DNA from: Candidatus Brocadia sp. WS118
Lineage (GTDB): Bacteria > Planctomycetota > Brocadiia > Brocadiales > Brocadiaceae
Reading direction: 5' to 3'
DNA length: 64,000 nucleotides
Assembly: GCA_007618135.1 (NCBI GenBank)
Contig: PHFX01000002.1
Span: 1 to 64,000, forward strand
The notes under the pieces were generated by a model. The model worked only from the letters and a program-made list of their open reading frames with translations. It was not told the origin of the DNA and did no database searches. How positions within the stretch are numbered: position 1 is the stretch's first letter; each line of letters starts with the position of its first letter. The position numbers were made by a program, and so were the translations under genes. This document shows, one piece after another, positions 1 through 23,114 of this stretch.

Positions 1-1997
1 TCGTCAGTTAAGGCGTTTGGCGGTGAAACAACCACGCGTTTTTTGCCGGTTTTTACCTCGACCGTCACTAACCGGTTTGCAGACGGCGCACCGTCACCGC
101 AGGTTACCGTTACCGTTTCCGGCGCACTTGCTTCCCTTAAAAGCCTCAGCGGTTCAGGTGGGGCATCAACCTCGGCTGCTTCGCAGGGTTTCGGTGTCGG
201 CGCAGGTGTTCCTGGCGTAGAGGATGGTGTAGGCGTTGGTGTACCTGGAGTGGATGTCGGTGTCGGCGTACCCGGCGTTGGTGTTGGTGACGGAGTAGGG
301 GTGGCCCCATTGCCCGCCTTTGTGGTAAAGCTCCACGTATACTCTGATTCCAACGTCGTCCCTGCAAAATTTGCCGCCGCGATTTTATTGGTAAGCACCG
401 CCGTATAGAGGGTGTTGTATGCCAGATTGCTCAGCGGGGTAAATATTACCTTGTCGCCATCCGTGCTTACTTGTCCTGACACACCGCCAGACTCGCTTGA
501 CACCAGGAACGTCTCCGGGGTAGCCGTTGAGCCGTTTATTAACAGGGAAAATACGGCAGACACTTCGGTGTTGATATCCACATCGGCCGCCCCATTGGAA
601 GGGGTTGTGAAATTTACGAGTAGCTTCTCCGGAGGCGGGCCTCCACCGTCTTCGGATGTGGTGAATGACAACTCGCTCCCATTAAGCGTAGCCACAAAAT
701 TCTGCGCTACAATGCGATAGTAGTAAACCGTGTCTGGGCTTAACCCGCCAATTGTGATGCCTACCGGTGTGTCGTTTATGCCGCTCACTGCCTGCGAAGT
801 CGACGTGCTGGTGTAGAAACTGCTCGCGGTGCCATATTGAAAAAATGCCATTGTGGCGAGTCCACCGGCATTTACCGTTCCGTTGAGTGTTGCATCACTT
901 GTCGTTATGTCTGATGCAGCTTCCGTCACTGCTGAATGGGTGGGGTTGAACGTGTATTTAAGGGTAAAATTCGTGCGATCGTAATAATTGATATGGGCAG
1001 CGCCCGACAGCCCCACGGAAATGGTGCTGTCAGCGCCTACATCGGCTGTACTATCCACCGTGGCGGTTGTCCATGTACCGGAGAGGTTGGTGGCATACTT
1101 GAGGTCGCCGTTTGTAGCGTCATAATAGCTGATATACGCAGCGCCTGACGTCGCCACCTCTATGTCGGCATACTGGCCTACATCACCTGCACTGTCCAGG
1201 GTATTGTATGTCCAGGAACCGGAGAGGTTGGTGGCATACTTGAGGTCGCCGTTTGTAACGTCATAATAACTGATATAAACGGCGCCAGACGTCCCCACCG
1301 CTATGGAGGTATGCTGGCCAACATCGCCCGCACTGTCCAGGGGGGTGGTCACCCATGTACCGGAGACGTTAGTAGCATACTTGAGATTGGCATTGAAAAC
1401 TGCATAATAACTGATATAAACAGCGCCCGACGTCCCCACATCTATGGAGGTATACTGGCCCCTATCATCAGGACTGTCTATTGTGGTGACTGTCCATGTG
1501 CCGGAGATGTTGGTGGCATACTTGAGGTCGCCGTTTGTCGTGTCGTAATAACTAATATGGGAAGCGCCGGTTGGCGCTACCTTTATGCTGGTAAACCGGC
1601 CGACAGCGCCAGCACTGTCCAGGGTATTGAATATCCACGAACCGGAGACATTCGTGGCATACTTGAGATCCTGGTTTGTAAAGTCATAATAGCTGATATA
1701 CGAGGCGCCCGAGGTGCCCACATCTATGGATGTCCACCTGCCTAGATCACCTGTACTCTCCAAGGTGGTGGTCGTCCACGTGCCGGAGACGTTCGTGGCA
1801 TACTTGAGAGCGGTGTTTGTACCGTCATAATAACTGATATACGCGTCTCCGGACGTCCCCGTCGTTATAGCTCCAAACTCGCCTACATCACCGGCACTGT
1901 CCAGGGTGTTATTTGTCCAGGCGCTGGCATGGGAAATCATGACAATAAAGCCGAGAAACATCGCACATACCAAGATACCTATTTGCCTCTTCCGCAT
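1..1997 (-). CDS. Secreted repeat protein with Ig-like domains, C-terminus beyond the left edge
   Basis: Reading leftward from ATG at 1997, with an AGGAG ribosome site just upstream, the frame stays open to base 1, so the gene is partial. The first 25 or so residues form a signal peptide ending near SHASA. Next come seven copies of a 47-residue unit (consensus cores YISYYD, LKYATN, SGTW, LDSAGDVG). A fibronectin-III-like stretch follows (TLNGTVNAGG, YYYRIVAQN), then an Ig-like stretch of the kind found in S-layer and adhesin proteins, then a Pro/Thr-rich linker. I infer an exported or cell-surface protein whose repeats may fold as a beta-propeller. No catalytic motif was seen. The nearest downstream gene on the same strand lies outside the window. 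Confidence 0.8.
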   Translation of the reverse strand, partial: MRKRQIGILVCAMFLGFIVMISHASAWTNNTLDSAGDVGEFGAITTGTSGDAYISYYDGTNTALKYATNVSGTWTTTTLESTGDLGRWTSIDVGTSGASYISYYDFTNQDLKYATNVSGSWIFNTLDSAGAVGRFTSIKVAPTGASHISYYDTTNGDLKYATNISGTWTVTTIDSPDDRGQYTSIDVGTSGAVYISYYAVFNANLKYATNVSGTWVTTPLDSAGDVGQHTSIAVGTSGAVYISYYDVTNGDLKYATNLSGSWTYNTLDSAGDVGQYADIEVATSGAAYISYYDATNGDLKYATNLSGTWTTATVDSTADVGADSTISVGLSGAAHINYYDRTNFTLKYTFNPTHSAVTEAASDITTSDATLNGTVNAGGLATMAFFQYGTASSFYTSTSTSQAVSGINDTPVGITIGGLSPDTVYYYRIVAQNFVATLNGSELSFTTSEDGGGPPPEKLLVNFTTPSNGAADVDINTEVSAVFSLLINGSTATPETFLVSSESGGVSGQVSTDGDKVIFTPLSNLAYNTLYTAVLTNKIAAANFAGTTLESEYTWSFTTKAGNGATPTPSPTPTPGTPTPTSTPGTPTPTPSSTPGTPAPTPKPCEAAEVDAPPEPLRLLREASAPETVTVTCGDGAPSANRLVTVEVKTGKKRVVVSPPNALTD
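935..1930 (-). repeat. Tandem 141-bp repeats inside the surface protein gene
   Basis: The 10-mer tggcatactt (with one variant) recurs at 1091, 1232, 1373, 1514, 1655 and 1796, exactly 141 bp apart, and a seventh degenerate unit lies near 950. Each unit is 47 codons. The copies differ at scattered positions, so they are not a recent array. They are coding repeats, not a CRISPR. Confidence 0.9.
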
Positions 1998-2391
1998 CTA
2001 TTTCTTCTCCTTTCTAAAACACAACGACGCAAATAATTGCTGATAACCTGAAATGTTTGTTATAATTATGCAATATGGAACTTATTACCATTTTGAATCC
2101 AGATATGATTTAATGCTTCATGATGAAATTCATTCTTCAGAAGAACCTTATGGTTTCGTAGGGGGTTAATGTATAAAAATTCATGGTTGAATGCAAGATA
2201 AAAGTCGGTCATACTTTCACTTGCAAAAACAGCAAGAATAATTCGCGATAGATTAAAAGAGTCATCATAAAAAGAGGATTTTCAAGCATACACGGATTGT
2301 AAACAATATTGATGGATGTGTTTCTGAAATGATAAGGGGATATGTTGGTAAAATTAAGCAGTGGTAAGAAAGAGGGTACGATAAAATCAAT
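1998..2391. other. Intergenic region between divergent genes
   Basis: No convincing gene lies here. A sigma-70-like pair on the plus strand, TTGCTG (2037-2042) and TATAAT (2061-2066) with an 18-bp gap, could drive the FAD oxidase gene, although that would leave a leader of about 320 nt. Confidence 0.4.
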
Positions 2392-3891
2392 ATGATCCGC
2401 AGCGCCGATCCCGGGGTGATACGTCCTTACCTGAAAGATGCCTCTAACCTCACTGGTGGCTATGCACAAGAGGTGGTGTTTCCGGAGGATGAAAAAGACG
2501 TTGTTCAGGTGCTGGAAGAGGCTTGCTGCACGAAAACACCTGTCACGGTTGCGGGGAATGGAACAGGTCTTGTCGGGGCAAGAATACCCTTCGGCGGAAC
2601 CGTCCTGTCTACAGAAAAACTGGGCGGGCTGAAGTACATTCATCAAACCGCCGGGGATACCAGTTACGCAGTAACAGGACCAGCCGTTACCCTCCGGGCG
2701 TTACAGGCAGCAGTTTCTGCAAAAGGACTCCTGTATCCTCCGGACCCGACGGAAGAGAATGCCTTTCTTGGTGCCAGTGTGGCAACGAATGCATCGGGGT
2801 CGCGCACGTTCAAATACGGCGTTACTCGCAGGTGGGTAAGGCGGTTAAAAGTCGTTCTCGCGACAGGCGATATTTTGGACCTGCGCCGTGGAGAATGTCT
2901 TGCAGACAAAAAAGAGCGTCTTTTCCTGAAAGGCTCCAGGAATGTTTTTGAATTGAAGCTGCCTCAATACCGGATGCCTGAGGGGAAGCACTCTGCCGGT
3001 TACTATGTAGCGCCGGGCATGAGCGCTCTTGATCTTTTTATCGGGTCAGAAGGCACCTTAGGGGTAATCACGGAGGTTGAGCTTGCATTAATTCCTATAC
3101 CCCAGGAACTCTTCAGCGGTATTGTCTTCTTTGAGCGGGAAGCGGATGCCTTGCAGTTTGTTGGTCGGGCAAGAAAAGAATCGTTAAAAAATCGTGCTTC
3201 CCGGGCAACAGGCCAGATTGATGCTAGAGCCCTGGAATACTTCGACTCTCACGCCCTTGATATCTTGCGCCCGGCTTATGCCCAAATTCCCCAAAAAGCC
3301 CAGGCAGCTCTCTTTTTTGAACAGGAACTTCCGTCAGATTTTGAAAAGAAGGCTGTGGATCAATGGTTTCATGTGTGTCAGGGCTGCCATGCCCTGTTAG
3401 ATCAGAGTTGGTTCAGTCAGGGCATGAAGGAACATGATGCATACCGTGTGTTTCGTCATGCCATCCCGGTGCTCGTTAATAAAATCTTGCGACAGTATAA
3501 TCAACAGAAGATCGGCACTGATTTTACGGTTCCGAACGAACGCTTTTTTGATCTTTTTGAACTGTATCGGCAGAATCTGAGTGACTCAGGCCTTCGGTAT
3601 TGTATCTTTGGACACATTGCAGATAATCATCTTCATATAAATCTCCTGCCGGAGAACGACCGGGAAGCTGAGAGGGGATGGCAGATTTACCGTAAGATAG
3701 CACTTCAAATTATTCGGTGGGGAGGTACTATTTCTGCTGAACATGGTGTGGGCAAGATCAAACGTGAATATCTTTTAGACATGTTTGGCCCATTGGGGCT
3801 AAGGGAAATGGCTGCAATGAAAAAGAAACTCGACCCATGCGTCATTTTAGGCAGGGGAAATATTATTCCAGATGAGTATTTATACGACTAA
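2392..3891 (+). CDS. FAD-linked oxidase, GlcD / D-lactate dehydrogenase family
   Basis: This 499-residue protein has the FAD_binding_4 fold in its N-terminal half: NGTGLVGARIP (about residues 55-65), then PPDPTE and ATNASGSRTFKYG, typical of glycolate oxidase subunit GlcD and D-lactate dehydrogenases. The C-terminal FAD-oxidase_C region ends with FGHIADNHLHINL and ISAEHGVGKIKRE, the usual substrate and flavin contacts. The family oxidises a 2-hydroxy acid to a 2-oxo acid and passes electrons to a quinone or an Fe-S partner. No GlcE or GlcF partner is adjacent, so the substrate cannot be fixed. The ATG at 2392 has only a distant GAGGG upstream, so a nearby alternative start is possible. Confidence 0.85.
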   Translation: MIRSADPGVIRPYLKDASNLTGGYAQEVVFPEDEKDVVQVLEEACCTKTPVTVAGNGTGLVGARIPFGGTVLSTEKLGGLKYIHQTAGDTSYAVTGPAVTLRALQAAVSAKGLLYPPDPTEENAFLGASVATNASGSRTFKYGVTRRWVRRLKVVLATGDILDLRRGECLADKKERLFLKGSRNVFELKLPQYRMPEGKHSAGYYVAPGMSALDLFIGSEGTLGVITEVELALIPIPQELFSGIVFFEREADALQFVGRARKESLKNRASRATGQIDARALEYFDSHALDILRPAYAQIPQKAQAALFFEQELPSDFEKKAVDQWFHVCQGCHALLDQSWFSQGMKEHDAYRVFRHAIPVLVNKILRQYNQQKIGTDFTVPNERFFDLFELYRQNLSDSGLRYCIFGHIADNHLHINLLPENDREAERGWQIYRKIALQIIRWGGTISAEHGVGKIKREYLLDMFGPLGLREMAAMKKKLDPCVILGRGNIIPDEYLYD

Positions 3892-3958
3892 GGAGTGCAC
3901 TCTGACCTTTCACCGCATATCCTATGGTGAACGACTCTTCGCTGGCTCAATCGTCCCT

Positions 3959-4022
3959 TTCGCTGGTTCAATCGTCCTCGATTGAACCGAAACAGTTGGC
4001 ATTTTTCATGGCTGATAGCATT
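3959..4022. repeat. Interspersed palindromic repeat (CAATCGTCCTCGATTG core)
   Basis: The palindrome GGTTCAATCGTCC/TCGATTGAACC lies at about 3962-3990. The homology extends some 30 bp further and recurs inverted at 36823-36878, with the core again at 26953-26982. A weaker partial copy precedes it at 3941. A second hairpin, GGATCAATCT/AGATTGATCC, follows near 4053-4075. Confidence 0.8.
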
Positions 4023-4149
4023 TGGGAACTATAGCGCAGTGCTAAATATATGGATCAATCTACAAGATTGATCCAGCGATAAGGTTTCCCTGGTTGGTTG
4101 TTTATTTACCATAAATAATACGGGATTATTTTACCTTTGGAGAATGATA

Positions 4150-4680
4150 ATGATGAAAAAAACCGGCAAAGGCTTCAATCCTTTTTATTCAATTTCGGCG
4201 ATGATACTCTTGCTTCTCATGGCTGGCTGTGCACCGGTGATATCGAAGCAAATCAGAGAGCAAGTGAGACCAGATCTTACTTTTACGGAGGTATTCAATG
4301 CCCCCGAACGTTACAAAGGTCAAACGATCATCTTAAGCGGAATCGTTATCAAGACCGAGAATACCAAAGAAGGAACCCTGGTACAAGTATTACAGCGCCC
4401 TGCCGGCTTCCGCGGAAAGCCTAAGGATGTGGATGAAACCGGTGGCAGGTTTCTGGCGCTCGACAGCCGTTACTTAGATGTGAATGTATTTACTGAAGGA
4501 CGATCGGTTACCCTTGCAGGGGAGGTCCAGGGGAAGAGGACTCTCCCGCTGGATAAAACAGAGTATACATATCCGTTAATTTCTGTGAAGGAAATATACC
4601 TTTGGCCAGCCACAAGAAATTACGATGATCCTTATCCTTCGGTGCATATCGGTTTTGGCGTTGGATATTCCCGCTGGTAA
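4150..4680 (+). CDS. Slp-family outer membrane lipoprotein, paralogue 1
   Basis: Four in-frame ATGs lie at 4144, 4147 (ATA), 4150 and 4153. The GGAG at 4139-4142 suits 4150, which also gives the same MMKKTGKGF start as the next paralogue. A lipoprotein signal ends at LLLMAGC, so Cys would be acylated. The body matches the Slp family: YKGQTIILSG, LVQVLQRPAGFRGKP, GGRFLALDSRYLD, GRSVTLAGEVQGK and YTYPLISVKEIYLWP. Slp proteins are outer membrane lipoproteins induced by starvation or stationary phase in enterobacteria; the role here is unknown. This is the first of three tandem copies. Confidence 0.88.
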   Translation: MMKKTGKGFNPFYSISAMILLLLMAGCAPVISKQIREQVRPDLTFTEVFNAPERYKGQTIILSGIVIKTENTKEGTLVQVLQRPAGFRGKPKDVDETGGRFLALDSRYLDVNVFTEGRSVTLAGEVQGKRTLPLDKTEYTYPLISVKEIYLWPATRNYDDPYPSVHIGFGVGYSRW

Positions 4681-4863
4681 AGTTTGAAATACCGGCAATG
4701 TGATTTGTGACAAAAAACAGCGTAAGGTATTTCTGCAAAAGCGGATTATATCCTCTCGTGCTCAATAATCTTGTTGATGACCTGGTTATAAAGCATTATC
4801 ATTGAATATAAAGATGTTTGTTTTTATCATGCACCATGTCTTTGAAAAAGCGAGGGGAAGCTC

Positions 4864-11386: not shown

Positions 11387-11450
11387 TAGGGACACGGTGC
11401 ACCGTGTCCCTACGGTATGGATAAATGACACATGAATACCGCAAAAAATA
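11387..11450. repeat. Palindrome copy A fused to a HEPN-gene fragment
   Basis: A perfect 26-bp palindrome (TAGGGACACGGTG and its complement) lies at 11387-11412. The bases to 11450, read on the minus strand, encode FFAVFMCHLSIP in one frame, which matches the intact HEPN protein's YFYAVFMCHLSI. Copy C at 12828 has the same arrangement. Confidence 0.8.
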
Positions 11451-11546: not shown

Positions 11547-11864
11547 CTAGCCATAGATTACCTCACCTTCTTTAACATAATCCACAACCGGTGATTCTTT
11601 TTTTTCCCATTCTTCCGAGGTCATAGCGACGGCTTCTATTGGCTCGAAGACCTCATAAATGGCATCAGAGAGGATGTCTATTCTCTCCCAATAATCCTTA
11701 CCTGAAAAGTCCCCGGATATAACAACCACATCAATATCGCTTCCTTCCTTGTATGTACCCGTGGCATAAGAACCAAACAGTATCATTTTGGTTATTCTTA
11801 TGTTTTTGGATTCTAAGGCTTTTCTAAAACGGGACAAAATTTCTAAAACTGCGTTTTTATCCAT
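11547..11864 (-). CDS. MNT-type nucleotidyltransferase, antitoxin partner of a HEPN toxin
   Basis: The 105-residue protein carries the minimal nucleotidyltransferase signature GSYATGTYKEGSDIDVVV at residues 31-48 (GS, then DxD with Asp43 and Asp45). In HEPN/MNT toxin-antitoxin systems such a protein modifies the HEPN RNase with nucleotides and neutralises it. It overlaps the end of the HEPN gene by 22 bp, so the pair is translationally coupled. A role as a general aminoglycoside-type nucleotidyltransferase is unlikely at this length. Confidence 0.85.
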   Translation of the reverse strand: MDKNAVLEILSRFRKALESKNIRITKMILFGSYATGTYKEGSDIDVVVISGDFSGKDYWERIDILSDAIYEVFEPIEAVAMTSEEWEKKESPVVDYVKEGEVIYG

Positions 11865-12223
11865 TCCAGCGCCTCCTTGCTCCTCAATAGTATATTTCCT
11901 ACAACAGACTGTGTAAAATCCTTTTGTAGCGTGTCCAATTCCTCAGGGTATCTTGTAACGATACTGGCTTCGTTAAGTTTTATGAGAAATTTTCCAACAG
12001 GTTTTAAAGGTTTGATACCGATCTTATTGAGCAAGTAAACAAGATTATGAACCTTTGGTGGTATTTCTTTCAATCGTTCCAGGTAAAGTCCTTTTAGGGC
12101 CTTTTCAATGGACAGATGACACATAAAGACTGCGTAAAAATATCTTTTGTTGTCGAACATAATTTCGGCTGTTTTCATATCATAATCAGCCTGTTTCAGC
12201 CATTCTTGGGGAGTTTTGCCCAT
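11843..12223 (-). CDS. HEPN domain protein (putative RNase toxin of an MNT/HEPN pair)
   Basis: ATG at 12223 gives MGKTPQEWLKQADYDMKTAE, a classic HEPN start; the open frame continues upstream to 12268 but would overlap the RAYT gene. Downstream motifs are YFYAVFMCHLSIEKALKGL and PPKVHNLVYLLNKIG. HEPN proteins are all-helical and often are RNases, but a clear RxxxxH motif is not obvious here. The gene starts 13 bp after the RAYT stop on the same strand. A truncated second copy lies at 12856-12973. Confidence 0.85.
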   Translation of the reverse strand: MGKTPQEWLKQADYDMKTAEIMFDNKRYFYAVFMCHLSIEKALKGLYLERLKEIPPKVHNLVYLLNKIGIKPLKPVGKFLIKLNEASIVTRYPEELDTLQKDFTQSVVGNILLRSKEALEWIKTQF

Positions 12224-12236
12224 TGTCTTTTCACTA

Positions 12237-12785
12237 TTATTCTTTGTTATTTGGATTTTCCCTATCAAGTTCCCACTGTAAGGGATTGTTGATAATGTAT
12301 TCCCTGATTTGGTTCAAATTTTTTTCATTACGGATTATATGTTCATAAAATCGAGATTGCCATACTGCTTTGCCATAGGACTTTCGTATTTCATTAATCC
12401 GTTTTTTTGTTACCGCCTTGAACGATCGAATTATCGTTGAGATGGAATTGGACGTCGGTCTGCCGAATTGTTCAAATGTAGGGACACGGTGCACCGTGTC
12501 CCTACCATTATCCTGAATAATGATTATTCCATGCACATGATTCGGCATCACAATGTATTTATCTATGATAATATTCGACCGTATTTCTGCCGTTTTTACC
12601 CATTCGTTTTCAACAATCATACCATATTCATTCGATCTCATTTCACCATGTATTACATCGCCTAAAATACATTCTTTGTTATGTGTGCATATCGTTATAA
12701 AATATGCGACTGCCTTTGAATAATCATATTCCTTTAATCGGATTGACCTTCGATGGTGTTTGTCTGGATCATATGTCATTTTCAT
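12237..12785 (-). CDS. REP-associated tyrosine transposase (RAYT, Y1_Tnp family)
   Basis: This 182-residue protein has the HUH signature MPNHVHGIIII (His83 and His85) and the catalytic Tyr in REYIINNP (about Tyr163), with YFITICTHN near the N-terminus. RAYTs nick and join single-stranded palindromic REP DNA. A perfect 28-bp palindrome lies inside this gene, encoding residues 94-103, and related palindromes flank the region on both sides. The gene looks intact. It is located between two HEPN copies, so it probably arrived or rearranged there. Confidence 0.88.
   Translation of the reverse strand: MKMTYDPDKHHRRSIRLKEYDYSKAVAYFITICTHNKECILGDVIHGEMRSNEYGMIVENEWVKTAEIRSNIIIDKYIVMPNHVHGIIIIQDNGRDTVHRVPTFEQFGRPTSNSISTIIRSFKAVTKKRINEIRKSYGKAVWQSRFYEHIIRNEKNLNQIREYIINNPLQWELDRENPNNKE
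12478..12505. repeat. Palindrome copy B, inside the RAYT coding region
   Basis: A perfect 28-bp palindrome, GTAGGGACACGGTG plus its complement, is read in frame as GRDTVHRVPT by the transposase gene. Its core is identical to copy A. Confidence 0.9.
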
Positions 12786-12855: not shown

Positions 12856-12973
12856 GATATGAATAAATGACACATGAATACAGCATAAAAATATCTTTTT
12901 TTTCGAACATAATTCAGGCTGTTTTCATATCATAATCAGCTTGTTTCAACCGTTCCTGAGGACTTTTGCTCAT
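12856..12973 (-). pseudogene. Truncated HEPN gene copy
   Basis: From ATG at 12973 the product MSKSPQERLKQADYDMKTA matches the intact HEPN start and then meets a TGA caused by a small change at 12914-12916. Beyond it the bases still align with the intact gene through the codons for RYFYAVFMCHL, up to palindrome copy C. The rest of the gene is missing. The upstream frame to 13147 is open but unlike known families. Confidence 0.8.
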
Positions 12974-13294
12974 AATTCTTTCTTCTTTTGTAGTTAATTG
13001 GTAACTATTCATCGTATTTTCACTCTCAGCCGCTCCGTTTTTGTTTTCCCCAATGGGTGATTCCTGTATCAATAGCCTGAATTCATCTGCTGCGGCCAGT
13101 ATACCACAGGCTTTTTCACCCATTTCTTCCGCTCTATACCGCATCACACATGCATGGAATTCTCTGGCTGAACAAACACCACACCTCTCTTTACAAAGGC
13201 TTCCAGGAGACTACGATGGACTCATCTACAGCCCCCATATTGCCTGCCATAACGACTGTTTGTTTTCTCTCTTATTACGTGTCAGGTAAATTTT

Positions 13295-13581: not shown

Positions 13582-14556
13582 TTATTGAATGTTTAAATCA
13601 TATGAATCAATAATATTGGCTGATTTGGTGTTAAAAGCAATAATAACTATTTTGTTGCAACCGTAAGAGTAATGTTCAGTATATTCCTCAGCTCTTGAAA
13701 ATGTAATAAATACATTTTTATGTCGATTGGCAAAATAAAAAAGAGGTATCGCAGAAAGTTTCGTTCCTAATGAACTTACAATTATATTGTATTTATCACC
13801 AGCTTCTTTATATATTTCTTCTAAAGTATTAGTGGCTTCTTTAATACTTACAAAAGAAATTTCTCTCTTGTTTACATTCGGTCTAGAAAGAAGCAATTCA
13901 TTTTCTTTTTCAGAAATATTTTTCCATTTTTGGTTTGATGAAGAAGGTACTCCTATAAGAGCTACAGTTTTATGTGGGTCAAATGTCTCCCATATTGCAT
14001 AGGCTCTATGTCCTTCAAATCCCAAAATTTCAATAAGTAGTTTTTGCTTCTTTGGATCGTAATCATCTCCAAAAAATGGTAATGTTCTAACATCTTTAAC
14101 ACCCAAAGAAATCGGAAGTTCATAATCAATAGGTTCTATATAAAATAGGTAACCAGAAGCATTAGATTCAACTAATTCTTTTAAGAGCATGAATAAAGTT
14201 GACTTCGGGAATGAAGTTATATCTACAATTGTTTTAAATTTTTGCAGATCTATTTTAAATTTTTCTATTCTTTCTCTTATATACTGCCTTACCTCTACTG
14301 GATGTTTTACAGAGATATTAACTATATCATAGTTTTTAGATATCTCTGCAAGTCTATCATCAATAAACGCCTTATTTTGTTTCCAATGAAGTGTGTTGCC
14401 TAAAAAAGATGATGGGAATCCAATAGAAAAAGCATAATCAATGGATGCTTTTCCTTTTATTGCAGAAAGCACCCCAATAGTTCTTTCTTCAAAACCGTAT
14501 CCGCTAAAGTATACAATCGGGCTATCAACGTTAAAATATTTATGTATATTATTCAT
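13582..14556 (-). CDS. GFEER-motif protein of a putative defence cassette (unknown family)
   Basis: ATG at 14556 overlaps the ATPase stop (CATGAATAA) by 8 bp and has GAGGTG five bases upstream, so it is chosen over the longer open frame. The 324-residue product has FSGYGFEERTIG (residues 18-28), IVDITSFPKSTLF (110-122) and VSSLGTKLSAIPLFYFA (260-276). The alternation of hydrophobic strands with DIT and SLGTK turns suggests two Rossmann-like halves. The SLGTK loop recalls the GTK loop of CARF sensors, but that is only a resemblance. I do not recognise the family. It is the last gene of the MTase-ATPase cassette and is AT-rich like its partners. Confidence 0.75.
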   Translation of the reverse strand: MNNIHKYFNVDSPIVYFSGYGFEERTIGVLSAIKGKASIDYAFSIGFPSSFLGNTLHWKQNKAFIDDRLAEISKNYDIVNISVKHPVEVRQYIRERIEKFKIDLQKFKTIVDITSFPKSTLFMLLKELVESNASGYLFYIEPIDYELPISLGVKDVRTLPFFGDDYDPKKQKLLIEILGFEGHRAYAIWETFDPHKTVALIGVPSSSNQKWKNISEKENELLLSRPNVNKREISFVSIKEATNTLEEIYKEAGDKYNIIVSSLGTKLSAIPLFYFANRHKNVFITFSRAEEYTEHYSYGCNKIVIIAFNTKSANIIDSYDLNIQ

Positions 14557-17152
14557 GGAACACCTCTGGTACTCGTTTTCTAATTTCATCAAATAGCCTG
14601 GAATCAGTATATTCAAAATGACAGTGTCCCTGCATATCTGTAAATATCTTTTTGTTATATGCAGTATTGTATCCATGCAAAATTATTTTTCTAAAACCAA
14701 CAGCAAGCCCAAAGATAAATACCCTTTGTAAATAGTCAAGGTCTTTAGGAGAAAATCTTCCTTCAAATGAATCATATTGGCTTGGCAACTTAGTTGTATC
14801 AATAAAACAATACTGTGCTTTTTTCAAATCGTTAATTAAATTTCTAAACCAATTGCCCGTGAAATATTCTGTGGTAGAAATAACTTGGTACCCCAGGTCT
14901 TTCTCCAAAATATTCGTAACCCCGCCAGTTAATGTTTTTTCATAGTAGTTTGATTTCCGAGGCATTGTTAGCAATACAGTTTTCTTTGCAAGTGAAGTAT
15001 TAACGTCTTTTATTATTTCAGCATTCCACGGTTTATTACCAGAATTTATAATAGGTAATATTTTATCTTTACACAGTTTTTCGATTTCATCTTCTATAAC
15101 CTGATAAGGTATGTATTCTTTTCCTAACATAGCTTCAATTTGCTGAACCGGGAACTCAGTGTTAACAATACTAAAAGCATGCTTTTCTCTAGATAGAGCA
15201 AGAGCAAGTTCAAAAACTACATTCTCGTTGAGATCGGTCAATTCATATATACCAAAATTGGTTTTATGAATCATTTCGCAGATTTTACAGGTTAAATCCC
15301 CTTTTGGCGGGCGTTCGATTGCGACTTCAAATTTTTTTAATTGTTTTCCAAATATATCCCTAGCCAAAGATGTCCAATCGTGCTTTATTGGTGAAGCATA
15401 GAAACAACCGTCTCCTTTAAAGTCTAGATCTATCCTATCACAGTTACCAGATATTACTGGACAGTATTTATTAATAAAACTTTTTTGTATTTGAGGTTTG
15501 TGATAAGAAGTATCCATCGGTGAATTACAACCAAGAATTTCGTTTATTTTTTTTGCTTCAATATCTATTATCCAACGGTCGCGATAGGGAATTCTTAGAA
15601 CAGGGGTTAATAATCTGTTAAGGATAAGTGATTTTATGGATATTACTCCCCTTCTTGTTGTTCTATGAGCCAATTGGTATGTATGAAAAATATTATTAGT
15701 TACTGCTCGCGTGAGTATATCTTGCGCTTCTGTATTAATATTTTCGTAGTTTTTTATTTGAAATTGAATATGTTCTTTAGAAACTTCATTGTTTAGAAGT
15801 TTTTGTCTTGCTTCATGTCCAACATAATAAACTAGCTTCAACATAAGCAATCCTTTTTCTCTACTTTCGATTGCATCCAAAAATAATGAAGATTCATTAT
15901 TTATAACGTTTGTCTGAATATCAATCGGTATAGGCAAGATGGACTTGCTTAATCCTTCTGTGTTTTTCTGTCTTAACCATTCATCTAAAATTTTCTTAGC
16001 TAATATTAAAAAAGTTCTAATCACGCCCGAACTCATGTGAATTAATGTGCCGAATCCTGCATATTCTGGTCGGACATGACCTTTCCCTACCACTCCTTTT
16101 AATTTTGATAAAAAATCATCTATAGAATCATTACTTTCTTGAAATAAATCATCAGCCTTTATGTTATAGTCTCTCAGGCGATTGTTAACTATATCTTTAA
16201 CAAGTTTATAATAATCACTTTTTTCGCCTAAATCGGGGTACTCTATTGATTCGATAGTGAACTCATCACCTCGAGCCATTAATTCGAATCCACTATCGTC
16301 CTTAAATACCATCCCTCCCGGCAATGTTGCTATTTTAAAGGCAAGAGGTTCGTTCCTTACCCGAATTAACTCCAAAAGAATTTTTTGTTGTTCATCTGCT
16401 AAATTAGGATAGAAAAAATCGTCCAATAATATATAAAATCTTGCATTTTTGAATCTTGGAATTTTCTTCAGAACATTTCCAATTTCAATAACCGCGGACA
16501 GGTCAAATCGATTATGTGCTATGGAATAAGCTAAATTAAGCACCGATTTGTGCATTAATAGTGAAAAATCTTTGCGTTTCTCTTTTAATATAGCATTTAA
16601 TGAAGTAAAAGCGGCAGTCAGTTTAATTGTTCGAATATCTATTTGACATATTTCACAAATTTCTTTAAATAGTCCATCATACAATTGTGATGGATTATCG
16701 AAGTCTAAACCTACTTTGGGTCCGTAATTTATAATTGTATTTAGCATTTCTTCGATTATAAAAAGTGCAAAGTAGTGACCCATGCACTGTTTCCAAAAGC
16801 GTTTTACCAGTTTCTCATCATTACGTTTCATTTGATAATCGAAAATATTTTCACGAAATATCTTAAACTCATAACGTTCACAATTTATTAATATCCCAAC
16901 AAAATCCAAGTGATGTGTAAGTGGGTCTTTGCCTTCTTTCTTTAGAATTTCTATATGTACTGGCAGGTACAACGATTTTAATAGCATAGTCTTGCCGGAG
17001 CCACGTGTCCCAACGAGAATGACATTTCCTCTTCTTGCAAGATTTGAATAATAAGAAGCCTTTGGATCACTAAAATAATCAGCAATAATTTTGTAGTTAG
17101 TGTTAAAATCTTCTGTTCTTATATGGTCGAATGGATTACTTGTTGGTTCCAT
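14549..17152 (-). CDS. AAA/ORC-like ATPase with two C-terminal NDT/TIR-like domains
   Basis: This 867-residue protein starts with an ATPase: Walker A GTRGSGKT (48-55) and Walker B ILLDDFFY (241-248). A long helical middle follows (about 300-560). Residues 580-690 resemble nucleoside 2-deoxyribosyltransferase or TIR-like domains: FYASP (584-588) and ENVVFELALAL (643-653, compare NVxYELG). Residues 720-867 look like a second copy: TVLLTMP (725-731), CFIDTT (782-787) and FIFGLAVGF (812-820). Such domains degrade NAD or nucleotides in several immune systems. It overlaps the MTase gene by 17 bp and the next gene by 8 bp. No signal peptide or membrane segment was seen. Confidence 0.8.
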   Translation of the reverse strand: MEPTSNPFDHIRTEDFNTNYKIIADYFSDPKASYYSNLARRGNVILVGTRGSGKTMLLKSLYLPVHIEILKKEGKDPLTHHLDFVGILINCERYEFKIFRENIFDYQMKRNDEKLVKRFWKQCMGHYFALFIIEEMLNTIINYGPKVGLDFDNPSQLYDGLFKEICEICQIDIRTIKLTAAFTSLNAILKEKRKDFSLLMHKSVLNLAYSIAHNRFDLSAVIEIGNVLKKIPRFKNARFYILLDDFFYPNLADEQQKILLELIRVRNEPLAFKIATLPGGMVFKDDSGFELMARGDEFTIESIEYPDLGEKSDYYKLVKDIVNNRLRDYNIKADDLFQESNDSIDDFLSKLKGVVGKGHVRPEYAGFGTLIHMSSGVIRTFLILAKKILDEWLRQKNTEGLSKSILPIPIDIQTNVINNESSLFLDAIESREKGLLMLKLVYYVGHEARQKLLNNEVSKEHIQFQIKNYENINTEAQDILTRAVTNNIFHTYQLAHRTTRRGVISIKSLILNRLLTPVLRIPYRDRWIIDIEAKKINEILGCNSPMDTSYHKPQIQKSFINKYCPVISGNCDRIDLDFKGDGCFYASPIKHDWTSLARDIFGKQLKKFEVAIERPPKGDLTCKICEMIHKTNFGIYELTDLNENVVFELALALSREKHAFSIVNTEFPVQQIEAMLGKEYIPYQVIEDEIEKLCKDKILPIINSGNKPWNAEIIKDVNTSLAKKTVLLTMPRKSNYYEKTLTGGVTNILEKDLGYQVISTTEYFTGNWFRNLINDLKKAQYCFIDTTKLPSQYDSFEGRFSPKDLDYLQRVFIFGLAVGFRKIILHGYNTAYNKKIFTDMQGHCHFEYTDSRLFDEIRKRVPEVFHE

Positions 17153-17975
17153 TTGACACCTCTTTTCTTAGAATGAGTATATTATGATGAATTATGTTGG
17201 GAACGTAACTGAATGGATATCCATAAGGACGTAAACGGATACCATTTTGATACCAAATAATTTCTCCCTTCAAAGTAAAGCCACGAGATTGTGCGATTTT
17301 TGCTATGTCTTGGTTTACTAATATATATCTGCCCTTTTGGTAAGCATTTTTAGTCATTATTATTAAATATTTGTCCTTGTATAATAATTTGTAACTTTTT
17401 TCAATAAAAAGTGTTATTGTATCGAGATAATGTTCGTATGTTTTGCAATTGCTGAAATCTTGAGCATATTTAGAAAATTCTTTGTAATCCGTATGCCTAT
17501 TCCTTTTATTAGGATAATCTCCACGACACATTGTTCTGTCTATGTTGATATTATAAGGAGGATCAGTAAGAATTAAGCTAAATTTCCTTCTAGAAGATAT
17601 TAGTTTATCCATTACTTCAAGGCAATCACCTTTGACAATTTTCTTCTCTTGTATGATTTCATTTTGACATACTTTCTTATATATTGATATCCATTGCGGA
17701 TTAAGTTCGATTCCCAGTGCTTTCCTACTACATAATGATGCTCCTAACAAAGTACCCCCTACCCCTGCAAATGGATCAAGAATCGTCGCCCCCTTTTTTG
17801 TAAAGAAAGAAATTAGTTCTTTCATAAGTTCTGGTGGTTTATTAGCACCATGTCGTTGGCGTAATGAAAACCCATAGCTTTTTGGATAATTTGTTTTCAT
17901 CACTGATTGAGTCAAATATATCCATCGATCGCCAGTCAAATCATTCAACTTGTTATCGGGATGGCGTTTTTTCAT
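17136..17975 (-). CDS. DNA adenine/cytosine-N4 methyltransferase of the cassette
   Basis: This 279-residue protein has SAM motif I LDPFAGVGGTLLGA (66-79) before catalytic motif IV TDPPYN (137-142). The I-then-IV order and KPPELMKELISFF lead-in are typical of N4/N6 DNA methylases found near BREX-like and other defence genes. A target-recognition region is not obvious; it may lie at 150-200 (Arg/Asn/Tyr rich). It is the first gene of the three-gene operon. It probably marks self DNA. No restriction endonuclease is seen beside it. Confidence 0.85.
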   Translation of the reverse strand: MKKRHPDNKLNDLTGDRWIYLTQSVMKTNYPKSYGFSLRQRHGANKPPELMKELISFFTKKGATILDPFAGVGGTLLGASLCSRKALGIELNPQWISIYKKVCQNEIIQEKKIVKGDCLEVMDKLISSRRKFSLILTDPPYNINIDRTMCRGDYPNKRNRHTDYKEFSKYAQDFSNCKTYEHYLDTITLFIEKSYKLLYKDKYLIIMTKNAYQKGRYILVNQDIAKIAQSRGFTLKGEIIWYQNGIRLRPYGYPFSYVPNIIHHNILILRKEVSNGTNK

Positions 17976-18364: not shown

Positions 18365-19552
18365 TCAGTCAAAATCAGCGTAGATTTCTCCAAAATTTAT
18401 ATTTGCAATGTTGACTCTTTCATACTGCTTTTTTACGGATAATTTCGCATATTGAAGGTCCGGACTTGCGCTTCCGTTCTGTATCGCAACGGATGCCTCT
18501 ATGAATCCGGCGAGGCTATCGGCGGCCTTGACAAGTTCTCCGTCCTTAGGATTGAACCTGTCGTTGTTATACGTCTCGTTGATCTCCTTGCTGCTGAAAT
18601 TTTCTTTCTTCCCGTTTATTGTCACAACACTGTCAAATTCGTCCTCAGTAAACATTTTAATTTCCGGATGCCATTCCTCCGGAATCAGACCATATACTTC
18701 CTTCTCCATCTGCTCTTTCTCATACCCTTTTATCAGGTCACTGAGTCCTTCGACCGACCTTTTTACCGGGGATATGATATCCCTGGTAAGGACTTCCGGC
18801 AGGTCATGAAATAAGCCGGTAAAGTAGTTGTTAACACATCTTTTTTTGCATGCCTTTATTTCCAGGGAAAAGAGGTAAGAAAGTATAGCAACAAACAGTG
18901 AATGCCCCAGAACGGTAGTCTTTGGTATTCTGTGGAGATGAGCCCATCGTGACTGGAATCTGAGTTGGCCGCACAAGTCGATGAAATTTTTATATTTTGA
19001 ATGCTTTGTCAATTGATCCACGCCCTTTAAATCATAGTATCGTTCCTGCTTTTCCTGTAAATCTTTTCTTATTGTATCTATTTCGTAGCCATCCGGGTTT
19101 GCATGTTCAATAATGTTGAACTCCCACTTGGTAGCATAAAAGTGAGCGGCGCTTAAAATCCTTTTGTTTAACGTGTCGTCACTCCTCAAAAAATAACTGC
19201 AAAATCTTTCACAGAAATCCCTGCCTAAAGGTGATAGAATGAATTCTAATTCTTGATAAACCCACTCGTTTAATTGTTTGTATTTATTTGCATCTTCCTT
19301 TATCTTATAAAAAATGGGCGGCTTTAAATCGGTGATGACGATGCGCTGCAAGAGTTCAAAAATTCCCCCTTCAATGATGTCTATCCAGCTAAAACCCTGC
19401 TTATCTTCCTCGAATTTACCGAGAAAATACGCAATTACCATTTTGTGGGCTTGTTTATCCAGTTCTATCAATTCTATGGGACGTATCTTATCGTTCCATC
19501 GCTGCATATAGGCAGCATCGAAAATCTTTAGGAGCAATGCCTTTCGTATCAT
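18365..19552 (-). CDS. HD-domain phosphohydrolase, YfbR-like
   Basis: This 395-residue protein has an HD fold: VLGHSLFVA (His217), FTGLFHDLPEVLTRDI (His249-Asp250 and Asp258). The HDxxExxTxDI form is shared with YfbR-type 5'-deoxyribonucleotidases. The N-terminal part contains AHKMVIAYFLGKFEE, suggesting a related helical segment. The likely activity is hydrolysis of a nucleotide or other phosphate ester. It lies upstream of the methyltransferase cassette on the same strand, but a 389-bp gap separates them, so membership in the cassette is doubtful. Confidence 0.78.
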   Translation of the reverse strand: MIRKALLLKIFDAAYMQRWNDKIRPIELIELDKQAHKMVIAYFLGKFEEDKQGFSWIDIIEGGIFELLQRIVITDLKPPIFYKIKEDANKYKQLNEWVYQELEFILSPLGRDFCERFCSYFLRSDDTLNKRILSAAHFYATKWEFNIIEHANPDGYEIDTIRKDLQEKQERYYDLKGVDQLTKHSKYKNFIDLCGQLRFQSRWAHLHRIPKTTVLGHSLFVAILSYLFSLEIKACKKRCVNNYFTGLFHDLPEVLTRDIISPVKRSVEGLSDLIKGYEKEQMEKEVYGLIPEEWHPEIKMFTEDEFDSVVTINGKKENFSSKEINETYNNDRFNPKDGELVKAADSLAGFIEASVAIQNGSASPDLQYAKLSVKKQYERVNIANINFGEIYADFD

Positions 19553-22071: not shown

Positions 22072-22440
22072 TCAAACATCTTTAAAAACGCTAACGCACC
22101 AATAGTCTTTATCACGGGGGATAAATAGTCTGTCCGCAGTTTTTGCCTTCTCTAATAACGCTTCATCTGAAGTCATATGGAGATCGAGTTCTTTAGCAGT
22201 TACAACATCGTGTCCATGCTGCCTTAAGAAATCTACGGTTTGAAAAGTAAGACTATCTTTAACCCAACCACTAATCATTGCAGTTTCAGCTAAAATCGAT
22301 ACCTTAATTTCATGTAATTTCATAACAAATTGATAGTATATGTTAATAGACATTAGCATAAGAGTAATTACAGAAGCTACAGCCACAATTACTCCAGAGG
22401 CTGATTGAATTACTACCCAAACCGTCCTTTGAGTGCTCAT
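22072..22440 (-). CDS. Membrane segment joined to a DUF5615-like (PIN-like) tail
   Basis: Start ATG at 22440 follows GGAG. The first 40 residues form one membrane segment (VIVAVASVITLMLMSINIYY). The C-terminal part FLRQHGHDVVTAKEL ... SDEALLEKAKTADRLFIPRDKDY matches the DUF5615 PIN-like pattern, where RDxDY/F ends the fold. The end, WCVSVFKDV, is abrupt, so the domain looks incomplete. I suspect a fusion or rearranged toxin gene. Confidence 0.5.
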   Translation of the reverse strand: MSTQRTVWVVIQSASGVIVAVASVITLMLMSINIYYQFVMKLHEIKVSILAETAMISGWVKDSLTFQTVDFLRQHGHDVVTAKELDLHMTSDEALLEKAKTADRLFIPRDKDYWCVSVFKDV

Positions 22441-22817
22441 AACCGCTCCGTGAGTTTTATGTGTTTAGTTGTGTAGGTTATGTAGAGCATAAGCGAAACC
22501 CAACAACACAGATTATTCATAGCCTACATTTTCATCAACATTTATTTTCAGCACCTGCTCCCCAATTACTGTCGTAAGCGCCTTGTTTTACGTAACGATG
22601 AAAGCTGGAATGTAGCCAGCAATGGGTGATTTTACCAAAGAAAGTCATACCTTGTGCTTGTGATCTGTCTGCGTGTATAGCACAGCTCTGCGATATTGCA
22701 TTATTTCCTTGCCTGTCCATAGTAAATTATTGGGTTTCATTTACCGTATCACGTACGGGACATGCCTCAACTCAACCTACAAAACCTATGTGCTGTATGA
22801 TGTCAACCGTTTTTGAA
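22441..22817. other. Intergenic region with no supported gene
   Basis: A 61-codon open frame lies on the minus strand at 22535-22720, but it lacks a recognisable family and a clear ribosome site. I see no repeat or RNA gene here. Confidence 0.4.
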
Positions 22818-23114
22818 TTAAAAAAGATAACGATCGATCTCAAGTGCACTATGGAATATACCTAAAATATCTATGTTGCTGTCTGGCTTTATAAGATATG
22901 CAATTCGATAATGTCCATACAACAAAATACGAATATTATGGTCTGGTTTCCTGTCATACTTGTGGCCTAACTCCGGAAATTGTTGTAATAATTGAACTCT
23001 GTCATAAATACCTTCAACTACTCGACCCGCTGCATCTTGATTATCTTCAGCTATGTAATCATAAATATCTTTAAGCCATCGTTCTGCTTCTGCCGTCCAG
23101 TTTATTCTCGCCAT
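22818..23114 (-). CDS. RelE/ParE family toxin
   Basis: This 98-residue protein shows the ParE pattern: WTAEAERWLKDIYDYIAEDN, FPELGHKYD, ILLYGHYRIAYLI and LGIFHSALE. ParE toxins poison gyrase, while RelE members cut mRNA; sequence alone favours the ParE side. It overlaps the upstream antitoxin gene by 13 bp, so antitoxin then toxin are coupled on the minus strand. Confidence 0.88.
   Translation of the reverse strand: MARINWTAEAERWLKDIYDYIAEDNQDAAGRVVEGIYDRVQLLQQFPELGHKYDRKPDHNIRILLYGHYRIAYLIKPDSNIDILGIFHSALEIDRYLF

Follow-up and report, generated by a model that had tools for sequence, protein, structure and literature searches.

Three genes that overlap on one strand in a 64,000-nucleotide stretch of DNA from Candidatus Brocadia sp. 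WS118 (the window) raise the question of whether they form a defence system and, if so, of which kind. A preliminary description, made from the sequence alone, had read them as an AT-rich cassette lying beside HEPN/MNT and RAYT genes, with overlaps of 17 and 8 bp. All three genes are present on the minus strand, and recomputing the overlaps gave 17 bp between the methyltransferase and ATPase genes and 8 bp between the ATPase gene and the third one. The GC content of the cassette is 32.1%, against 43.7% for the window, and both the HEPN/MNT genes and a REP-associated (Y1_Tnp) transposase gene adjoin it.

Genes and products of the cassette

The features are as follows, all on the minus strand:

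17136..17975, minus strand: DNA methyltransferase, 279 aa (PF01555 at 9e-26 in two pieces; PADLOC Type II MTase at 4e-52; motifs)
14549..17152, minus strand: ORC/CDC6-like AAA+ ATPase with a fused, probably tandem NDT/TIR-like C-terminal region, 867 aa (PF24389 at 1.2e-63)
15473..17152, minus strand: ATPase core, residues ~1-560 (PF24389 match; other ATPases of the family stop at this point)
16988..17011, minus strand: Walker A, GTRGSGKT, residues 48-55, with Lys54 (motif)
14993..15430, minus strand: C-terminal domain A, residues 575-720, probably NDT/TIR-like, with FYASP and NENVVFELALA (hhalign with widened alignment)
15209..15211, minus strand: codon of Glu648, the presumed catalytic glutamate (alignment with L001, L045, L070 and L071)
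14552..14965, minus strand: C-terminal domain B, residues 730-867, probable degenerate copy lacking the glutamate (hhalign; identity to L001)
13582..14556, minus strand: CARF6 protein, 324 aa, GFEER near the N-terminus and SLGTK near the C-terminus (PDLC01917 at 5.4e-35)

The methyltransferase carries the two motifs noticed earlier, motif I (DPFAGVG, at 67) and motif IV (DPPY, at 138). Motif I precedes motif IV, an order that is circularly permuted relative to the N6_N4_Mtase profile, and the two pieces of the PF01555 match also stand in permuted order. The ATPase matches the Pfam family PF24389 (ORC-CDC6-like) with 216 bits (E 1.2e-63), exceeding the curated cut-off of 27 bits; the match starts at residue 6 and spans the core in two pieces. 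The Walker A and B motifs of the preliminary description were found again, as GTRGSGKT at 48 and a Walker B-like YILLDD at 240. A direct PDB search with the ATPase returned no convincing match. Elsewhere, ATPases of the ORC/CDC6 clade act on DNA and in conflict systems (PMC10853773, PMC12839542).

The third protein, previously assigned to no recognised family, turned out to match CARF6 of PADLOC. The best model is PDLC01917 (E 5.4e-35, over residues 43-349 of the long open reading frame), and ten more CARF6 models also match; translation really begins at ATG 14556, the longer frame from 14676 being mechanical only. No Pfam family matched the protein, and used alone it gave no convincing match in the PDB. 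The profile of the CARF6 family has Card1 as its best PDB match (E 0.013), and the CARF6 protein of a relative (L015) matches PF23400 (CARF_Card1) at 1.3e-4, under the cut-off. The AlphaFold model of the window protein, built from a two-sequence alignment, has a pLDDT of 45 and is unusable. The CARF6 family (PDLC01910-PDLC01925), whose match covers most of the 324-aa protein, is listed in PADLOC as a CARF candidate only, under a model name that makes no link to a methyltransferase or to an ORC-CDC6-like ATPase.

The fused C-terminal region of the ATPase

The window ATPase continues for about 300 residues beyond the family core. A Pfam search with this C-terminus gave no match, a PDB search with the region gave no convincing one, and the AlphaFold model, again from a two-sequence alignment, is unusable (pLDDT 31). 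Profile comparison was more informative once two genes from contig C65 of this genome, together with two additional matches (L070 and L071), had been added to widen the alignment. With this widened alignment only, domain A aligned with a PF05014-type set at an hhalign Prob of 95.7 and with a PF10137-type set at 83.8, pairwise comparisons whose E-values are not database-calibrated; CARF controls stayed below 1, and with the two close sequences alone the Prob for domain A drops to 28-32. On this profile comparison, domain A is probably NDT/TIR-like. Domain B, 57% identical to its counterpart in L001, aligned with domain A at a Prob of 96.7 when both alignments were widened and at 0.24 with the two close sequences alone, and is probably a degenerate copy of it.

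The preliminary description had proposed twin NDT/TIR-like ends, with FYASP and NVVFELA-type motifs distributed over two domains. An NDT/TIR-like domain at the ATPase C-terminus is indeed probable and the motifs do exist, but FYASP (at 584) and NVVFELA (at ~643) both belong to the first domain, and the second has only the degenerate VFIFGLAVGF, without the glutamate. Glu648 of domain A aligns with a glutamate of L045, L070 and L071 and has no counterpart in domain B. Judged from these alignments, domain A is apparently the active copy and domain B a degenerate one with a probably regulatory role. Among 392 genomes of the phylum, the complete fused region was found in no genome beyond the window and L001, and no plasmid record matched it. 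Contig C65 itself (L045, genome G000) holds two adjoining genes, 658-1704 and 1756-3426, each with two NDT/TIR-like domains and the second also with a GAF domain; they are possibly a separate tandem-NDT system of the same genome.

A four-slot operon family and its genomic setting

The genome collection yielded a single relative of the entire ATPase, L001, from a Planctomycetota MAG, where all three genes recur in unchanged order with the overlaps kept. Protein identities to the window are 70% for the methyltransferase, 63% for the ATPase and 68% for CARF6, and at such a distance the arrangement is not due to chance. In every part, both C-terminal domains included, differences between the two loci are about 1.5-4 times as frequent at third codon positions as at first and second ones, which is the pattern left by purifying selection. 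The genes had been proposed to travel as a unit, an idea that unlinked homologues would speak against; order and overlaps recur in L001, and the homologues are linked, CARF6 being the gene directly downstream of the ATPase in 18 of the 20 loci retrieved with the ATPase alone. Nine of these 18 CARF6 calls (L037, L094 and L099-L105) were made by a profile not trained on them and that of L039 by PADLOC, the remaining ones being seeds of the profile and so weaker evidence. The exceptions are L036 and the remnant L038. In most loci the ATPase and CARF6 genes overlap by 4-17 bp.

CARF6 and PF24389 searches in the phylum, together with ATPase searches in plasmids and phages, gave 27 loci in total, decayed and cut ones included. 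They describe an operon with four slots, for a DNA methyltransferase, an effector, an ORC/CDC6-like ATPase and CARF6, that occurs in several phyla and on Klebsiella plasmids. A DNA methyltransferase adjoins in 19 loci with complete flanks; the intact L103 lacks an annotated one, and in L036 hsdM lies a few genes away. The methyltransferases of the first slot belong to unrelated or distant classes, namely an NPPF N6-adenine type, SPPY, SPPF, D12/Dam, C5 and the permuted DPPY type of the window. The effector slot, read by Pfam or by BLAST to a Pfam-tested member, holds PRTase-CE in ten loci, HD-CE in three, and calcineurin in L035, L101-L104 and, fused, in L036; in L017 a kinase-like domain is fused to the ATPase. 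Both slots are exchangeable.

The two slots vary together. C5 methyltransferases accompany HD-CE (L007, L099, L100), Dam/D12 ones calcineurin (L035, L101, L102, L104), and the permuted DPPY type the fused NDT region (window, L001). PRTase-CE occurs with NPPF (L033, L034, L039, L041, L043, and L094 by likeness to L041), with SPPY (L040, L042, L044) and with SPPF (L015). This pairing could be plain lineage inheritance. The ATPase tree groups the NPPF loci with one another, and likewise the SPPY loci, and is too poorly resolved for deep claims. In the window and in L001 the methyltransferase and ATPase genes overlap, with no separate PRTase-CE, HD-CE or calcineurin gene between them, and the ATPases of loci with PRTase-CE, HD-CE or a separate calcineurin gene lack such a C-terminal extension. 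The fused region thus probably replaces the separate effector gene in the window variant.

Other genes recur nearby. ThyX lies beside five loci (L007, L008, L040, L044, L099), a dimeric dUTPase beside three (L034, L041, L094) and MazG beside L101; the repeated presence of ThyX and dUTPase makes thymidine nucleotides a pool of interest. Type I restriction genes flank L007, L034 and L036, with HsdR identified by Pfam in L034 and L036 and by sequence likeness in L007. In L007, which has the HD-CE version of the cassette, the C5 DNA methyltransferase (2973-4769) carries a fused HhH-GPD glycosylase domain. In a genome of the same genus (G122), L008 (5047-6771) is a decayed cassette, with the ATPase truncated beside a transposase, the CARF6 gene split and ThyX still adjoining.

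In the chromosome, the cassette occupies a variable interval, as seen from its different occupants in close relatives. Genome G217 keeps the gene order of the window at about 4.2-12.9 kb and again from 18.2 kb, and a single 1263-aa gene, which matches PADLOC PD-Lambda-4_A (E 7.7e-28), separates its REP-associated transposase from the HD gene; by this match, one occupant is related to a known defence gene. In G393 the interval measures about 600 bp and contains part of another coding sequence, KAP-type NTPase-like by eye. PF24389 is patchy in the phylum (11 of 392 genomes). The core family was found in 152 plasmid records, a count inflated by near-identical plasmids; they are mostly from Klebsiella, and 135 are predicted to be conjugative. 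With the window ATPase as query no relatives were found in viral contigs or phages, and a Klebsiella ATPase query found two Acinetobacter phage records. In the plasmid of an E. coli J53 transconjugant (L098, 5147-7089) the Klebsiella-type ATPase is annotated as frameshifted and the methyltransferase, PRTase-CE and CARF6 as intact. Plasmid OW959907 carries the set of methyltransferase, PRTase-CE, ATPase and CARF6.

Some neighbours were considered as further members and rejected. The HD/YfbR-like gene at 18365-19552 (395 aa; phrog_30941 at 1e-84) is a resident gene: it is present in 17 of 32 other family genomes, nearly all of them without the cassette, in copies mostly 81-98% identical, and is missing beside L001. 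The HEPN/MNT genes and the REP-associated transposase are also missing from L001, and G217 has the transposase without HEPN/MNT. The HEPN/MNT pair (11547-12268) is absent from G217 at exactly that point, positions 11415 and 12238 of the window being contiguous there, so these two genes form a presence/absence module of their own. Part of a HEPN N-terminus was also seen, near 12914-12990. Further away, 22072-23114 holds a DUF5615/PIN-like gene followed by a small gene for a candidate toxin of ParE/RelE type.

Proposed mechanism, alternatives and known systems

We favour, with some reserve, the view that the locus is a mobile, methylation-gated defence cassette of the four-slot family, in which the nucleotide-attacking effector is here fused to the ATPase. 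The methyltransferase would mark self DNA, since self-marking is the function most easily seen as common to exchangeable methyltransferases of different chemistry. The ATPase, probably as a DNA-bound oligomer, would together with CARF6, a putative ligand-binding or gating partner, sense unmarked or abnormally processed DNA. The activated effector would then attack nucleotides, the common function most easily seen in a slot that takes PRTase-CE, HD-CE, calcineurin and NDT-like domains, and growth would stop or the cell would die, an abortive outcome. In the window variant, the tandem NDT/TIR-like region at the ATPase C-terminus would take the place of the separate effector, one copy being active and the other degenerate and probably regulatory; we infer that the reaction would be cleavage of the N-glycosidic bond of NAD+ or of a (deoxy)nucleotide.

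CARF folds are known oligoadenylate receptors, and CARF6 might instead be the true sensor of a cyclic oligonucleotide or another nucleotide signal coming from another system, for example the Cas10 of type III CRISPR, with the ATPase and the NDT region responding and the methyltransferase incidental. The Card1 match of the CARF6 family profile and Cas10 palm matches in the host (E 2e-32) are in line with this. However, six of the 11 carriers, near-complete genomes G137, G369 and G048 among them, have no match to the Cas10 model, which also matches in E. coli and is thus not fully specific. The Cas10 matches of the host are on other contigs, and there were no cas genes among the cassette neighbours tested. 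No cyclase adjoins, and a methyltransferase adjoins in nearly every complete locus, so we regard an external signal of this kind as unlikely. It is less likely still that the NDT/TIR-like region, in the manner of TIR and ThsA of Thoeris, produces a second messenger for CARF6 to read instead of depleting a pool. One operon does hold a TIR/NDT-like enzyme and a CARF protein, and a tandem of active and degenerate domains suggests regulation, but elsewhere in the family CARF6 occurs with PRTase-CE, HD-CE or calcineurin and no NDT/TIR domain, so that it cannot generally depend on a product of this kind.

The ThyX, dUTPase and MazG genes beside several relatives would also suit a role outside defence, as an epigenetic or nucleotide-salvage module with methyltransferase-dependent regulation and a housekeeping deoxyribosyltransferase. 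Such a module would hardly be expected to show the patchy spread in the phylum, the carriage by plasmids and prophages, the swapping of effectors, the PD-Lambda-4-like gene in the same interval of a relative and the flanking type I restriction genes, and we hold this account to be very improbable. The methylation-gated defence cassette is the reading retained below.

The preliminary description took the cassette for a candidate undescribed system; it does not stand isolated and is instead one variant of a modular family with already named parts. It shares with the ORC-CDC6-like/PRTase-CE/HD-CE immune systems, whose Pfam entries are consecutive (PF24389-PF24391), the ATPase family, the CARF6 neighbour, the methyltransferase in the operon and a nucleotide-directed effector, and differs from them in having its presumed effector, a tandem NDT/TIR-like region, joined to the ATPase in place of a separate gene. 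PRTase-CE and HD-CE reportedly come from Nicastro et al. 2023. The four-slot family may already be described there, perhaps together with the NDT-fused variant; our literature searches, whose coverage did not extend to that possible prior description, found no paper on this operon.

Likeness to other systems is partial. With Thoeris the cassette shares a possible TIR/NDT-like domain of NADase type in a defence setting; in contrast, it has no ThsA, the domain is fused to an ORC-CDC6-like ATPase, and a methyltransferase and CARF6 are added. None of the nine cassette and flanking proteins tested matched Thoeris models of PADLOC. The PRTase-CE of relatives matches PADLOC PRTase_III-A (2.8e-24), the PRTase effector of type III-A retrons, but no reverse transcriptase was recognised in these loci and the window variant has no PRTase. 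A putative self-marking DNA methyltransferase is shared with Type II restriction-modification, although no cassette protein matched a cognate restriction nuclease. An ATPase of the ORC/CDC6 clade stands with a DNA-modifying enzyme in BREX (BrxC) and Ssp (SspC) as well (PMC12839542, PMC10853773), as it does here; unlike these, the operon has no other recognised BREX or Ssp component and contains CARF6 instead.

More tentatively, these operons could represent an immune class resembling restriction-modification, in which the place of the nuclease is taken by an effector that destroys nucleotides and is gated by a CARF protein and an ORC/CDC6-like ATPase, and in which any methylation chemistry may serve as the mark and any nucleotide hydrolase as the weapon. 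Here the weapon would be built into the sensor as a tandem of active and inactive NDT-like domains. Conjugative plasmids of Klebsiella commonly carry the family, and plasmids of laboratory E. coli transconjugants have it too, which offers a tractable host for its study. If the proposal is true, CARF6, a CARF family listed without function, would gain a testable operon logic, and self-recognition based on methylation would be seen to trigger an attack on nucleotides and not the cutting of DNA.
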